NCBI GenBank assembly: GCA_004294225.1
Contig: REBA01000009.1
Coordinates: 1 to 64,000 of the forward strand
DNA from: Cytophagales bacterium
GTDB lineage: Bacteria; Bacteroidota; Bacteroidia; Cytophagales; Cytophagaceae
Direction: 5' to 3'
Length of the DNA stretch: 64,000 nt
Each line of letters opens with the position of its first letter. The stretch's first letter is position 1. A model generated the notes under the pieces. The model had not been told where the DNA came from. It ran no database searches and was given only the letters and a program-made list of their open reading frames with translations. Shown here piece after piece: positions 26,994 to 33,117 of this stretch. A program made the position numbers and the translations under genes.

Positions 26994-27034
26994 CAATAAA
27001 AAAACCTTGAGATTATCTCAAGGTTTTTTTATTG
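26994..27034. terminator. Strong bidirectional intrinsic terminator
   Basis: A perfect 19-bp inverted repeat with a 3-nt loop, containing CCTTGAG/CTCAAGG flanked by A and T runs on both sides. It closes the T9SS thioredoxin-fold gene, and in the other direction the tRNA-like RNA gene at 27042-27187, whose 3' end lies 8 bp away. The rest of the intergenic stretch 26976-27317 is accounted for by that RNA and its promoter; the final 85 bp before the Lrp gene are A/T rich with no motif I can defend. Confidence 0.9.
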
Positions 27035-27041
27035 TTATTAG

Positions 27042-27187
27042 CTGAAGGGAGGGGATTCGAACCACCTACGGAGCGATTAGCTATAGCTCATAAATTAATT
27101 TTGTGGTCAACCCATTAAGCTACGTTTGTTTCGAACTCTCCACCCCCGAGACAGGAGGGCATGTCTGCCAATTTCAACACCCTTCAG
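27042..27187 (-). ncRNA. tRNA-like RNA with a very long variable arm
   Basis: A 146-nt minus-strand RNA. Its ends pair over 8 bp (CTGAAGGG / CCCTTCAG). In order from the 5' end: U8-G9-type linker; a D arm matching type II (Leu-like) tRNAs, TGTTGAAATTGGCAGACATG, with the GG pair in the loop; an anticodon-like arm CCCTC-CTGTCTC-GGGGG, whose middle triplet reads GTC; a variable region of about 75 nt closed by TGGAG / CTCCG; and a canonical T loop TTCGAAT with a one-mismatch T stem. No CCA is encoded. Inside the variable region TAGCT can pair with either of two AGCTA copies. A perfect promoter lies 14 nt upstream. The D- and T-loop signatures argue for a true tRNA fold, but it may be a tRNA-derived RNA rather than a decoding tRNA; an ordinary tRNA gene with an insertion is the main alternative. 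Confidence 0.6.
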
Positions 27188-27201
27188 TGAAGTAATTGAT
27201 A

Positions 27202-27231
27202 CAAACCTAATATAAATACTTTTTATTTCAA
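27202..27231 (-). promoter_or_regulatory. Consensus promoter of the tRNA-like RNA
   Basis: Minus strand TTG (27229-27231), 19-nt spacer, TAGGTTTG (27202-27209): a perfect TAnnTTTG element with ideal spacing. The predicted start is about 7 nt upstream of the base-paired 5' end, the distance expected for a stable-RNA gene. Confidence 0.7.
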
Positions 27232-27317: not shown

Positions 27318-27779
27318 ATGGACAAAGAATATCAAATTGATAATACCGATAGAAAAATATTATCCCTACTTATGGAAAATGCAACTATGCCTTATACAGA
27401 TGTTGCCAAATTAGTCAATGTTTCTGGAGGAACAGTTCATGTTAGAATGAAGAAAATGGAAGAAATGGGAATAATCAAAGGCACTCAATTAACTATAGAT
27501 TATTCCAAACTTGGTTACGATATTACTGCATTCTTAGGAGTTTATCTCGAAAGAAGTTCCTTTTATGATGAGGCCTTAAGTGGATTGAATGACATTGATG
27601 AAGTGGTAGATGTAAATTATACCACAGGCAATTATAGTATGTTTGTAAAATTAATATGCAAAGATACACAACATTTAAGGCAAGTATTACATGATAAAAT
27701 TCAAAAAGTGGTAGGCATCCAAAGAACAGAAACCTTTATTTCTTTAGAACAATCTATAGTTAGAAATATTAAATTTTAA
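27318..27779 (+). CDS. Lrp/AsnC family transcriptional regulator
   Basis: A 153-residue DNA-binding protein with an N-terminal winged helix-turn-helix (about residues 8-65: DRKILSLLMENATMPYTDVAKLVNVSGGTVHVRMKKMEEMGII) and a C-terminal RAM ligand-binding and oligomerisation domain (about 70-150: AFLGVYLERSSFYDEAL, VVDVNYTTGNYSMFVKLICKD). Such proteins sense amino acids. It sits alone upstream of the small lipoprotein and the suf operon; its targets cannot be determined here. Confidence 0.93.
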   Translation: MDKEYQIDNTDRKILSLLMENATMPYTDVAKLVNVSGGTVHVRMKKMEEMGIIKGTQLTIDYSKLGYDITAFLGVYLERSSFYDEALSGLNDIDEVVDVNYTTGNYSMFVKLICKDTQHLRQVLHDKIQKVVGIQRTETFISLEQSIVRNIKF

Positions 27780-28134: not shown

Positions 28135-28163
28135 TTGTAACAAACATTTTTTATTTAAATTTG
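28135..28163 (+). promoter_or_regulatory. Promoter of the suf operon
   Basis: TTG (28135-28137), 18-nt spacer, TAAATTTG (28156-28163), a perfect Bacteroidota-type promoter. It places transcription start near 28170 and so confirms the ATG at 28197, not the upstream in-frame TTG at 28161, as the sufB start. No IscR/SufR-like operator is recognisable. Confidence 0.7.
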
Positions 28164-28196
28164 TTTATAATTAGAATTAGTCTAGATAAATATATT

Positions 28197-29642
28197 ATGA
28201 GTGAAAATATAAAAGTATTAGAAGAAATCACCTCCTCTGAATATAAATATGGCTTTGTAACCAATATAGAATCAGATGCAGCTCCAATGGGTCTAAACGA
28301 AGACACCATTCGTTTTATATCTGCAAAGAAAAATGAGCCAGAATGGCTTTTAGAATGGAGGTTAAAGGCTTATAGACATTGGTTAACATTAGAGCAGCCT
28401 ACTTGGCAGAATCTTAAAATTCCAGAAATTAATTTTCAAAATATTATTTATTATTCTGCTCCTAAAAAAAAGCCTCAATACAATAGTTTAGATGAAATAG
28501 ATCCTGAACTTAGAGATACATTTAATAAATTAGGAATTTCGCTTACTGAGCAAAAAAGACTTTCTGGGGTAGCAGTAGATGCTGTTATAGACAGCGTTTC
28601 AGTTACAACTACCTATAAAGAAAAGTTAGGAGAGTTGGGTATAGTCTTTTGTGCATTGAGTGAAGCAGTTCACACCCATCCTGATTTAGTAAAAAAATAT
28701 TTAGGTGCCGTAGTTCCTATGACAGACAATTTCTATACCTGTTTGAATTCGGCAGTATTTAGCGATGGCTCTTTTGTATACATTCCCAAAGGAGTTCGCT
28801 GTCCGATGGAACTTTCTACTTATTTCAGAATTAATGCTGAAAATACAGGTCAATTTGAAAGAACGCTGATAATTGCTGATGAAGAGGCTTATGTAAGCTA
28901 TTTGGAAGGTTGCACAGCACCGATGAGAGACGAGAACCAATTACATGCAGCAGTAGTTGAACTCATTGCATTAGATAAATCTGAAATTAAATATTCTACC
29001 GTACAAAATTGGTACCCAGGGGATAAAGAAGGGAAAGGCGGTATTTATAATTTTGTAACCAAAAGAGGAATCTGTTCTGGAGTAAAGTCTAAAATTTCTT
29101 GGACTCAAGTAGAAACAGGCTCAGCCATTACATGGAAATATCCAAGTGTTATTCTCAAAGGAGATGATTCAATTGGAGAATTTTACTCTGTAGCAGTCAC
29201 TAATAATTACCAACAAGCCGATACAGGCACAAAAATGATACATATTGGTAAAAACACAAAAAGTAGAATCGTGTCAAAAGGAATCTCTGCTGGTCGTTCG
29301 CACAATAGTTACAGAGGCTTGGTAGAAATAATGAAAAGAGCAGATAACGCTAGAAATTTTTCTCAATGTGATTCTTTGTTGTTAGGAGATAGATGCGGTG
29401 CTCATACATTCCCATATGTTGAAGTTAGAAACAATACTGGCAAAGTAGAACATGAAGCCACTACCTCTAAAATAGGAGAGGATATAATATTTTACTGCAA
29501 CCAAAGAGGAATAGCCACTGAAGAAGCAGTTGCCCTTATTGTGAATGGTTATTGCAAAGAAGTATTGAACCAATTGCCAATGGAATTTGCTGTTGAAGCA
29601 CAAAAATTATTAGCGATTAGCTTAGAGGGAAGTGTAGGCTAA
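28197..29642 (+). CDS. sufB: Fe-S cluster assembly scaffold SufB
   Basis: SufB forms the SufBC2D scaffold complex in the cytosol, on which Fe-S clusters are built from sulfide delivered by SufS/SufE. The product has 481 residues from ATG 28197. It contains the family regions [76 protein letters not shown], the conserved Cys in [22 protein letters not shown], and [22 protein letters not shown]. Promoter at 28135-28163. The first gene of a colinear sufBCDSE-T operon. Confidence 0.98.
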
Positions 29643-29673
29643 CTATTACTAATTTAAATTTGAGATAAAAACT

Positions 29674-30426
29674 ATGTTGAAGATAAATAATTTACACGCA
29701 AAAGTTGAGAGTAAAGATATCCTAAAGGGAATTAATTTAGAAGTAAATCCTGGAGAAGTTCATGCTATTATGGGACCAAATGGTTCAGGTAAAAGTACAC
29801 TAGCTTCGGTTTTAGCTGGAAGAGCAGATTATGAAGTTACAGAAGGCTCAGTAGAATTCATGGGGAAAGAATTGCTTGAAATGTCTCCAGAAGACAGAGC
29901 TAGAGAGGGTATTTTCTTAGCATTTCAATACCCAGTAGAAATACCAGGTGTTAGCACGACTAACTTTTTAAAAACAGCTCTTAATGAAGTGAGAAAATAC
30001 CGTGGTCAAGACCCAATTGATGCTGTGTCTTTTCTAAATCTTGTTAAAGAGAAAAGTAAACTTGTAGAAATAGATCCAAGTTTGTTAAAACGTTCTTTAA
30101 ACGAAGGTTTTTCTGGTGGCGAGAAAAAAAGAAACGAAGTATTCCAAATGGCTATGCTAGAACCTAAACTTGCTCTTTTAGACGAAACAGATTCTGGACT
30201 TGACATAGATGCATTAAGAATTGTTGCCAATGGGGTAAATAAATTGAAGAATAAAGACAATGCAGTAATAGTAGTTACCCATTATCAAAGATTGCTTGAT
30301 TACATAGTCCCAGATTTTGTTCATGTACTGTATAATGGTAAGATTGTAAAATCTGGTACAAAAGAACTTGCACTTGAGCTAGAAGAAAAAGGATATGATT
30401 GGATTAAAAATCCAGTAAGTGCATAA
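29674..30426 (+). CDS. sufC: Fe-S assembly ATPase SufC
   Basis: ABC-type ATPase of the SufBC2D complex, 250 residues. Walker A GPNGSGKST (near residue 35), Q-loop region FLAFQYPVEIPGV, signature FSGGEKKRNEVFQMAMLEP, Walker B LALLDETDSGLDIDAL, and the switch histidine in VVTHYQRLL. It begins 31 bp after sufB and is followed by sufD after 35 bp. ATP hydrolysis drives conformational change of SufB/SufD during cluster assembly. Confidence 0.98.
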   Translation: MLKINNLHAKVESKDILKGINLEVNPGEVHAIMGPNGSGKSTLASVLAGRADYEVTEGSVEFMGKELLEMSPEDRAREGIFLAFQYPVEIPGVSTTNFLKTALNEVRKYRGQDPIDAVSFLNLVKEKSKLVEIDPSLLKRSLNEGFSGGEKKRNEVFQMAMLEPKLALLDETDSGLDIDALRIVANGVNKLKNKDNAVIVVTHYQRLLDYIVPDFVHVLYNGKIVKSGTKELALELEEKGYDWIKNPVSA

Positions 30427-30461
30427 TTAATAATTAACATTGAGAAATCAACCCATTAAAG

Positions 30462-31760
30462 ATGGAAAGCTTGGTTGGAAACATTGACTTGAAAGAAAGT
30501 CTTAAACAGCATTTAGAACAACAACTCTCAAATGCTAGCAGTTATTTGAAAGAAATTAGCATTAACTCATTTGATAAATTCGAAAAATTAGGTTTCCCTA
30601 CAATTAAAAATGAAGATTGGAAATACACTAATTTTTCTACTGTTCTGAAAAATAATTTTCAGTTGAGTAATGAAAATAGCCTAACATATGAACAGCTTAG
30701 TAAGCTATTGTTTTCCAAATTACAGGGCAATATATTGGTTGTTGTAAATGGTATTTATAGACCAGAGTTTTCAACTATTCTTGAAAAAGAAAACACACTT
30801 CAGGTTAGAAAAATAAACAATCTATCTAAAGAGTTTATTGAACAGCATCTTTCAAAGACGTTAGCTGTATCTGATGCTATGACTTCCTTAAATACTGCAT
30901 TTGCATCGCAGGCTTTAATATTGCAGATACCTAAAGGTAAAGTAGTTGAACATCCAGTATATCTGTATTTCATTGCTTCTTCTGACAGCAATATCTTTTT
31001 TCATCCAAGGACAATAGTTGTTGCGGAAGAAAATTCACAGATAAAACTTGCTGAAATACATCAGAAGCAAGGCAATCATATTTCTTTTTCTAATGCATTT
31101 ACAGATATCTATTTGGATAAAGATGCCAATGTAGAATATTATAAAATACAACCTGATCAAGAAGAACACTACCATGTTGGCACTACTCAAGTAGTTCATA
31201 AGGAGAAAAGTTGCTTCTGTGGAACAACCATTACTTTAGGAGGCACCATAGTGAGGAACAATATGAATTTGATTCTTAATTCCAATCATTGTGATTCCAC
31301 TATTAATGGATTATATGTAGGTAATAACAATCAACATATTGATAACCATTCCTTAGTAGACCATGCAATGCCCAATTGTTTAAGCAATGAGCTTTACAAA
31401 GGAGTATTAAATGGGAAGTCTACAGGAGTGTTCAACGGGAAAATATTTGTTCGTCAAGATGCACAGAAAACCAATGCATTTCAGTCAAATAAAACTATTT
31501 TATTAAGCAAGGATGCTACCATGAATACCAAACCGCAACTTGAAATATTTGCAGATGATGTTAAATGTTCGCATGGAGCTACTATAGGGCAACTTGATGA
31601 TGAACCTATGTTTTATTTAAGATCTAGAGGCTTGTCTGAGTCATCAGCAAGAATGATGTTAGTTTCAGCGTTTGCACAAGATATTATAGAACATATCAAA
31701 TTAGAGCCATTAAAAGAATTGATGGTTACTATGCTTGAAGAAACATTAATTCAAAATTAA
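30462..31760 (+). CDS. sufD: Fe-S cluster assembly protein SufD
   Basis: The SufB paralogue of the SufBC2D complex, 432 residues. C-terminal core shows NMNLILNSNHCDSTINGLYVG, DNHSLVDHAMPNCLSNELYKGVLNGKSTGVFNGKI and KTNAFQSNKTILLSKDATMNTKPQLEIFADDVKCSHGATIG, in the order expected of SufD. N-terminal half is divergent, as is usual. It sits between sufC and sufS, with 94 bp before sufS. Confidence 0.97.
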   Translation: MESLVGNIDLKESLKQHLEQQLSNASSYLKEISINSFDKFEKLGFPTIKNEDWKYTNFSTVLKNNFQLSNENSLTYEQLSKLLFSKLQGNILVVVNGIYRPEFSTILEKENTLQVRKINNLSKEFIEQHLSKTLAVSDAMTSLNTAFASQALILQIPKGKVVEHPVYLYFIASSDSNIFFHPRTIVVAEENSQIKLAEIHQKQGNHISFSNAFTDIYLDKDANVEYYKIQPDQEEHYHVGTTQVVHKEKSCFCGTTITLGGTIVRNNMNLILNSNHCDSTINGLYVGNNNQHIDNHSLVDHAMPNCLSNELYKGVLNGKSTGVFNGKIFVRQDAQKTNAFQSNKTILLSKDATMNTKPQLEIFADDVKCSHGATIGQLDDEPMFYLRSRGLSESSARMMLVSAFAQDIIEHIKLEPLKELMVTMLEETLIQN

Positions 31761-31854
31761 TGTTCAAGTAAATGTATTTAGTGTTGCTAAATTTCACTAA
31801 AGTAATGATTATTATTATTTATCCTTAAATCAATAATCAACCACAGCAAATTCT

Positions 31855-33117
31855 ATGAATAGCACAGCGGAAATATCACCCTATGTAGATCATAATGGAA
31901 ATTTGGTTGTTGAAAGAATAAGAAAAGACTTTCCTATTCTAAATCAGCGAATCAATGATAAGCCATTAGTTTATTTTGACAATGCAGCCTCTACTCAAAA
32001 ACCTAAAGTTGTAATAGATAGCATTTCAAATTACTATCAAACGATGAACGCCAATATTCATAGAGGAATTCATACGTTAGCAGAAAGAGCAACTGTAGCT
32101 TATGAAGATACTAGAATATCATTGCAAAAATTTATTAATGCTTCATCTTCTGAACAAATTATCTTTACAAGAGGAGCTACAGAAGCAATAAATTTAATTG
32201 CTTCAACATATGGAGTTCAGAATATTGCTCAGGGAGATTGCATTCTTGTTTCTGCTATGGAGCATCATTCTAACATAGTGCCTTGGCAAATCTTAGCAGC
32301 AAGAGTTGGTGCACAAGTAAAAATTATACCAATCAATGATTCTGGGGAATTAATTCTCGAGGCTTACCAAGCACTACTTAATGAGAAAGTAAAGCTTGTG
32401 GCAGTAAATCACGTATCAAATACACTAGGAACAATAAATCCTATTGAGACAATTACTGAATTAGCACATAAAGTAGGTGCGGTAGTAGTGATAGATGGTG
32501 CTCAATCGGTATCTCATCTAGATATTGACGTTCAAGCTTTAGATATTGATTTCTTTGTGTTGTCTTCACATAAATTCTACGGCCCAACAGGCATAGGAGC
32601 ACTGTATGGAAAAAAACATCTATTAGAGCAAATGCCACCTTATCATGGTGGTGGTGAAATGATAAAGGAAGTTACCTATGAAGGATTTTCTATCAATGAA
32701 CTTCCTTACAAATTCGAAGCTGGTACGCCTAATATAGCTGATACTGTAGCATTAAAATCTGCAATCGATTATATTAATTTCTTATCAAAAGATAAAATTA
32801 GAACACACGAAAACCATCTTTTAAACTATGCAACTTCTTTGCTTACTGCAATAGATGGATTGAAAATTATAGGAACAGCAAAAGAAAAGGTAAGTGTAAT
32901 ATCATTCGTTATAGAAGGAGTGCATCATCAAGATATAGGAATATTATTAGATCAAAAAGGGATTGCACTTCGTACCGGTCATCACTGCACACAACCTCTT
33001 ATGGGTAGATTCGGGATTTCTGGAACTTCTAGAGCTTCTTTTGCAGTATACAATACTATTGAAGAAATTGATATTATGGTTGATGCTTTAAAAAATGCGA
33101 TTAAGATGCTACGATAG
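31855..33117 (+). CDS. sufS: Cysteine desulfurase SufS
   Basis: PLP-dependent class V aminotransferase-fold enzyme that removes sulfur from cysteine and holds it as a persulfide for SufE. Of 420 residues, the PLP lysine is Lys240 in SSHKFYGPTGIGALYG and the catalytic cysteine is Cys378 in RTGHHCTQPLMGRFG, in the short loop typical of SufS rather than IscS. N-terminal PVYFDNAASTQKP-like segment is seen as LVYFDNAASTQKP. It lies after sufD and before sufE. Confidence 0.97.
   Translation: MNSTAEISPYVDHNGNLVVERIRKDFPILNQRINDKPLVYFDNAASTQKPKVVIDSISNYYQTMNANIHRGIHTLAERATVAYEDTRISLQKFINASSSEQIIFTRGATEAINLIASTYGVQNIAQGDCILVSAMEHHSNIVPWQILAARVGAQVKIIPINDSGELILEAYQALLNEKVKLVAVNHVSNTLGTINPIETITELAHKVGAVVVIDGAQSVSHLDIDVQALDIDFFVLSSHKFYGPTGIGALYGKKHLLEQMPPYHGGGEMIKEVTYEGFSINELPYKFEAGTPNIADTVALKSAIDYINFLSKDKIRTHENHLLNYATSLLTAIDGLKIIGTAKEKVSVISFVIEGVHHQDIGILLDQKGIALRTGHHCTQPLMGRFGISGTSRASFAVYNTIEEIDIMVDALKNAIKMLR

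Follow-up and report, generated by a model that had tools for sequence, protein, structure and literature searches.

What does an RNA do that has the body of a tRNA, the anticodon of tRNA-Asp, and a variable region of 76 nt? Such an RNA is encoded on the minus strand of the 64,000-nt stretch of Cytophagales DNA analyzed here (hereafter the window), where its mature part runs from position -1 (27187) to an encoded C74 (27041) and scores 151 bits against R1, a covariance model of the family. The acceptor 5′ strand TGAAGGG (27180 to 27186; U1 at 27186, G2 at 27185) pairs with CCCTTCA (27049-27043), which together with the discriminator base G73 (27042) and C74 forms the 3′ end (27041 to 27049). 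Between the acceptor strands lie U8, G9, the D arm (TTG/CAT, loop AAATTGGCAGA, A at 20a), and G26 (27160 to 27179), an anticodon arm (27143 to 27159) with a 5-bp stem, CCCTC/GGGGG, and the loop CTGTCTC (27154-27148), the giant variable region (27067 to 27142), and a T arm (27050 to 27066) composed of GGTGG, TTCGAAT, and CCCCT. In the anticodon loop, G34, U35, and C36 occupy 27152-27150, followed by U37 (27149) and C38 (27148). The variable arm is closed by an outer stem of GGAG (27138 to 27141) and CTCC (27070 to 27073). Inside it, a second stem, CGA (27133-27131) with TCG (27076-27074), leads into an internal loop with RAYAAA on its 5′ side (27130-27125; stem strand and loop side together 27125 to 27133) and CTAA on its 3′ side (27080-27077; together 27074 to 27081), and an apical motif, GGGTTGACCAC, lies at 27103 to 27113.

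The RNA has the hallmarks of a tRNA, including a 7-bp acceptor, D, anticodon, and T arms, G18 G19, a TTC T loop, and a discriminator base; the CCA tail is only partly encoded, as the window copy has C74 and not the full CCA. The acceptor/T branch was 7/5 in parsed copies. The D arm and body resemble the type II tRNA-Leu, from which the RNA differs in having G73 instead of A73, a GUC loop, and a variable arm several times longer. It was not called by ARAGORN, nor did Rfam 15 give a match in the window at gathering score, with tRNA families unmatched even at E 10. A putative promoter of the Bacteroidota type, from which the RNA would be transcribed, lies upstream (27202 to 27231, minus strand; TTG at 27231-27229, N19, and TAGGTTTG at 27209-27202) and ends 14 nt before C-1; it belongs to the class TTG-N19-TAnnTTTG, and TAnnTTTG was found upstream of 58% of cellular copies versus 6% in shuffles. 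Downstream of the RNA, inspection of the sequence showed a hairpin resembling a terminator, CCTTGAGATTATCTCAAGG, at 27005 to 27023, with a T run after it on either strand. The preliminary description of this DNA had named a Leu-like D arm, an anticodon-like arm with GTC, a TTCGAAT T loop, a huge variable region closed by this outer stem, and an own promoter, and all of these are present, on the minus strand. It had also proposed an 8-bp terminal pairing, of which 7 bp were kept; the eighth pair, C-1/G73, is not conserved, position -1 being C, A, or T in relatives, so that G73 is the discriminator base of a normal 7-bp stem. Elsewhere in the family, a boxA-like GTTCTTTAA was seen upstream of several copies (L036, L059, and L064), as in rRNA leaders, GTTCTT occurred in 10% of cellular copies versus 1% of shuffled ones, and GGTTATTTTGGGTTTATTGTTAATTGACTAA was conserved just downstream of one of two RNA copies in a Cyclobacteriaceae-like lineage (L041, L054, and L150).

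BLAST of 59 related genomes returned matches in 39, including tandem arrays of up to six copies. In a 25-copy alignment, 96.9% of structure cells were paired, compared with 48 to 56% when partners were slid. Compensatory change in related genomes, which the preliminary description had named as a check on its reading, was found in the form of two-sided changes in 15 pairs versus at most 5 in the slid controls, those of the outer and second stems of the variable arm included; with pairing and two-sided changes so far above the controls, a chance cloverleaf is excluded. The outer stem alone occurred as GGAG/CTCC, GAAG/CTTC, GAGG/CCTC, GGGG/CCCC, and GGTG/CACC. When R1 was run over 297 genomes of the phylum, the RNA was present in 32, with members scoring 70 to 155 bits and ordinary tRNA-Leu at most about 62 bits. 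A pattern scan of GTDB species gave at least 118 stretches, and among the matches listed all titles were Bacteroidota (Algoriphagus, Cyclobacterium, Dyadobacter, Spirosoma, Flammeovirga, Saprospiraceae, and others); since this pattern fixes the loop, its copies are no evidence for loop conservation. PLSDB and INPHARED gave no match, and a plasmid or cultured-phage origin was accordingly rejected. Overall, 195 distinct cellular and 98 distinct phage copies were collected, and this is a real and conserved RNA family. It is undescribed in the open-access full texts searched, a scope outside which most subscription papers lie.

Bacterial aspartate identity resides in G73, G34, U35, C36, and C38, with G2-C71 as a minor determinant, while U1-A72 makes Asp-tRNA a substrate for amidation by GatCAB and G1-C72 and U20a act as antideterminants (PMC9976931). 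Across the 293 distinct copies, U35, C36, C38, G73, and G2-C71 were invariant and G34 was present in 290, the exceptions being three cellular copies with A34 or C34. Because the copy finder demanded U35, C36, C38, and G73, the unbiased tests of the loop are the BLAST and covariance-model samples and a viral scan in which the loop was left free; among the matches listed in that scan, G34, U35, C36, and C38 occurred in 120 of 120 loops while positions 32, 33, and 37 varied. G73 and C74 were found in every copy reaching that far, U1-A72 in 291 of 293 (two phage copies have A1-U72), and C20 A20a in all 293, replacing the U20a antideterminant. Hence the RNA carries the complete AspRS identity set (G34, U35, C36, C38, and G73, plus G2-C71) and, through U1-A72 and A20a, unites it with the pair read by GatCAB. 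In the source genome, tRNA-Asp is normal, with G1-C72; tRNA-Asn also has U1-A72, so that a mischarged tRNA-Asn could be amidated by GatCAB.

In decoding tRNAs, position 33 is U and position 37 a purine. The RNA does not keep this pattern, as any of the four bases (U, C, A, or G) occurs at position 33 and U or C at position 37, where a purine was seen in just 2 of the 293 distinct copies; on these two positions a decoding tRNA was rejected. Given that the AspRS bases are kept while 33 and 37 drift, the loop looks preserved for AspRS and not for the ribosome, which, together with the enrichment of TAnnTTTG upstream, lends good support to the earlier view of a tRNA-derived nonribosomal RNA with its own promoter. 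Compared with tRNA-Asp (GUC), the RNA shares G34, U35, C36, C38, G73, and G2-C71, but it has U1-A72 for G1-C72, A20a, a type II Leu-like body, a variable region of 39 to 130 nt, no maintained U33, and a pyrimidine at 37. A tmRNA was rejected because the RNA has an anticodon arm and a separate tmRNA is encoded elsewhere in the genome. SerRS, for its part, would not require the anticodon-loop bases of AspRS. A SerRS-charged allo-tRNA was also rejected, since the loop retains exactly the AspRS bases and the fold is 7/5 with Asp identity, unlike allo-tRNAs, which have an 8/4 or 9/3 acceptor branch and serine identity and are type II tRNAs with unexpected anticodons, GUC included (PMC7609411).

We consider it likely that the RNA serves tRNA-dependent asparagine synthesis as a dedicated carrier that takes no part in decoding. 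As read from sequence, AspRS would load aspartate onto the 3′ end of the RNA by way of the aspartate identity set, GatCAB would read U1-A72 and convert Asp-RNA to Asn-RNA, and asparagine would then be freed from the RNA for AsnRS and metabolism. Once charged with Asn, the RNA should leave Asp codons unread, because it has not maintained U33 or a purine at 37.

The gene neighborhood points to asparagine as well. Divergent from the RNA, a gene on the plus strand (27318 to 27779) encodes an AsnC-type (Lrp/AsnC) regulator that is 45% identical to E. coli AsnC, also its best solved-structure match, and has the Pfam domains HTH_AsnC-type and AsnC_trans_reg; its sole NCBIfam match, AsnC NF008384, reached 179 bits against a cut-off of 227, so the protein is AsnC-type and not AsnC by the NCBI rule. 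A divergent AsnC-type gene was found at 26 of 30 BLAST loci from many families. Among 114 named loci, the regulator was adjacent in 52, always divergent and 122 to 271 bp away, and in other lineages it was separated from the RNA. AsnC orthologues (>165 bits) occurred in 34 of 297 genomes, comprising all 32 with the RNA plus two without it (G060 and G177). In E. coli, asnC and asnA are likewise divergent, 151 bp apart, and asnA is activated by AsnC in the absence of asparagine (PMC4482635). In the RNA-less genome G110, an AsnC homolog is divergent from asnB at a distance of 118 bp. The RNA thus occupies a slot held elsewhere by an asparagine synthetase gene, and the divergent regulator probably controls it as E. 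coli AsnC controls asnA. No conserved partner enzyme other than AsnC was found beside the cellular RNA at the 30 BLAST loci. SufBCD-SufS genes follow the asnC gene in the window (28161-33117), and SufB was near in 14 of the 30 loci, making RNA-asnC-suf a partly conserved order.

A carrier of this kind predicts that genomes with the RNA have GatCAB and lack a dedicated asparagine synthetase, and we tested this on 80 Bacteroidota genomes, judging GatCAB presence by GatB. gatB was present in all 35 RNA-positive genomes, and AsnRS was above cut-off in all 80 genomes except G063. Where GlnRS and AsnRS are both present, GatCAB is left without its textbook substrate; among such genomes, ordinary gatB was found in 27 of 27 with the RNA versus 1 of 30 without (Fisher 2e-15, relatedness ignored), the latter count rising to 3 of 30 when two divergent fused forms are included. 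Because the general AsnB model TIGR01536 is too broad to separate the routes, we used NF006949, which describes the E. coli type: this AsnB was absent from all 35 RNA-positive genomes and present in 23 of 45 RNA-negative ones. G060 and G177 have kept asnC and encode asnB, but neither the RNA nor gatB is present in them, in contrast to five genomes of their family in which the two occur; both are also missing from several further lineages. Five genomes (G205, G322, G046, G028, and G023) have the RNA, GatB, and AsnRS, yet lack AsnA, and no asparagine synthetase in them exceeds the cut-off. G205, listed as 100% complete, also has GlnRS, and asparagine synthetase was absent by three models.

Nearly all genomes with GatB and without the RNA lacked GlnRS, and GatCAB is therefore needed there for Gln-tRNA. 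A divergent form of the RNA was sought in the GatB-positive, RNA-negative genomes of the order, and ordinary tRNA-Leu alone was found; these genomes, too, lack GlnRS. The source genome itself has no GlnRS above cut-off, so its GatCAB may serve Gln-tRNA. Exceptions to the pattern were G071, in which GlnRS and GatB were present and the RNA was not seen, and G075, G103, G170, and G031, in which none of the tested routes was found. AsnA occurred in four RNA-positive genomes, and AsnB-family paralogs of 600 to 670 aa exceeded the TIGR01536 cut-off in many, the source genome included, and might make asparagine.

Neither AsnA nor E. coli-type AsnB is present in two RNA-less genomes, G255 and G209, in which gatB is part of a fused reading frame. 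The full operon was read for G255 and consists of gatC, gatA, and a gatB-AspRS fusion encoding a GatB-AspRS protein of 1116 aa (L411:1122-6176); a like gatB fusion is present in G209 (L412). No RNA was found beside the GatB-AspRS fusion. The G255 operon would constitute a built-in aspartate-to-asparagine machine and is an independent sign that AspRS and GatCAB can replace asparagine synthetase in this phylum.

The RNA is also carried by phages. We found 100 IMG/VR stretches encoding it, and at least 120 in a looser scan, with ordinary phage genes nearby, such as terminase, portal, PhoH, and ThyX. In five phages (L233, L257, L267, L246, and L273), it lies within arrays of 13 to about 25 tRNAs, two of them with tmRNA, and all five arrays already contain tRNA-Asp. 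In several arrays, the first base of tRNA-Asn is G (G1-C72 by inspection), which would make this tRNA unsuited to GatCAB; in L233, L257, and L267, tRNA-Asn has an unusual T arm and 3′ end. That phages replacing host tRNAs also bring the RNA would fit a role in meeting some demand of protein synthesis, for example that for asparagine. Perfect palindromes of at least 8 nt were found at the arm apex in 67% of phage copies versus 8% when shuffled, and in 13% of cellular copies versus 7%. About 35 different phage palindromes (e.g., GCCGGCCGGC, GCTTGCAAGC, and GCGCGC) follow GACCA (L223-L342), suggesting that phage copies may form kissing-loop dimers. About a third of distinct phage copies have an extra D-loop hairpin, the loop being 9 to 23 nt longer (L228, L230, L233, L257, and L267). 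GOLLD and ROOL are large structured RNAs that also occur near phage tRNA arrays and form intermolecular kissing loops (PMC12286853); their structure is unrelated, and they differ from the present RNA, which has a recognizable tRNA body and a cellular version.

In nearly all relatives, the variable region measures 39 to 130 nt. From the outside inwards, it comprises a stem of 4 bp, a further stem of 3 bp, the conserved 6x4 internal loop (RAYAAA/CUAA), and an inner part that is specific to the lineage. CTAA was present in 192 of 195 cellular copies, the apical motif GGGTTGACCAC in 94 of 195 cellular and 93 of 98 phage copies, and minimal members consist of the stems, the internal loop, and one hairpin, nothing more. 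The giant arm with its RAYAAA/CUAA loop is probably a dock for a partner protein, be it AspRS, GatCAB, or a releasing factor. In the G030 lineage (L212; G030:C23:55337-55414), the arm has been lost (V = 7 nt) together with G34, the loop reading CTATCTC, and its relative G047 has the loop CTCTCTC; both genomes encode AsnA, as if constraint on the RNA had been relaxed. A switching stem, which the preliminary description had read from alternate AGCTA pairings, was rejected, because comparison of relatives showed a variable inner stem and no conserved alternative pairing.

Could the arm and the AsnC neighbor instead mark a regulator? As a tRNA mimic to which AspRS and/or GatCAB bind, the RNA could sense Asp/Asn or glutamine status and control AsnC or the amidotransferase, with no bulk asparagine synthesis. 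The conserved divergent position of AsnC speaks for it, as do an internal loop and an apical motif conserved beyond what charging needs. We nevertheless regard it as unlikely, since phages carry the RNA without AsnC, up to six tandem copies and a kept 3′ end (G73, C74) fit a substrate, and a pure sensor explains neither the joint loss with GatCAB nor the synthetase-less genomes. The regulatory role proposed at the outset is thus unsupported, the data favoring a metabolic carrier, and the interpretation given in the preliminary description is partly supported.

A full charging identity set on a non-decoding loop would equally suit an Asp- or Asn-charged donor for another nonribosomal acceptor, such as the cell wall, a lipid, or a protein tail, much as staphylococcal tRNA-Gly serves peptidoglycan. 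No conserved transferase gene accompanies the RNA, however, and a donor leaves AsnC and the missing E. coli-type AsnB of RNA-positive genomes unexplained, making this quite improbable. Slightly less probable again is a specialized decoding isoacceptor of tRNA-Asp (or Asn) with a giant variable arm: the anticodon GUC, canonical T and D loops, and occurrence in phage tRNA arrays are what such a tRNA would show, but position 33 varies (U/C/A/G), 37 is U or C in nearly all copies, and a normal tRNA-Asp is already present in the source genome and several phages. Finally, a decayed tRNA gene or chance cloverleaf, with which the missed calls by tRNA finders and Rfam and the losses of arm and G34 in the G030 lineage might agree, has negligible probability, because helices covary (nearly every variable one does) and loop and acceptor are conserved over many families and phages, the loop order-wide, which also rules out the decay scenario raised in the preliminary description.

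The carrier we favor has a known counterpart. In Bdellovibrio, Deinococcus, and Thermus, AspRS and GatCAB act on tRNA-Asn (the transamidosome), a route kept beside AsnRS and GlnRS, often without AsnA/B (PMC4206432). The two are alike in Asp-specific charging and in U1-A72 for GatCAB. In the transamidosome, however, the carrier is a decoding tRNA-Asn charged by a non-discriminating AspRS, whereas here we propose a separate, tRNA-like carrier that has an Asp anticodon and could be charged by an ordinary AspRS, with a non-decoding loop and a giant arm; the system would be a variant of the AspRS-GatCAB route with a separate carrier.

In a survey of 547 bacterial genera, 67 had AsnRS, GlnRS, and GatCAB, of which 18, Bacteroidetes included, lacked asparagine synthetase, and the retention of GatCAB was left open or blamed on mischarged tRNA-Asn (PMC4206432). 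A dedicated carrier, if true, would answer this question for a large part of the Bacteroidota and add a family of RNAs overlooked by tRNA finders. It would also mean that tRNA-dependent amino acid synthesis has been split from decoding, a new job for RNA, and its presence in phage tRNA arrays suggests that protein synthesis depends on the RNA once host tRNAs fail. There is perhaps an even chance that the full picture holds, in which the only job of the RNA would be that of a cofactor for making a free amino acid, the sole source of asparagine in some Bacteroidota and essential to the point that phages whose own tRNA sets are nearly complete still carry a dimer-forming version of it.
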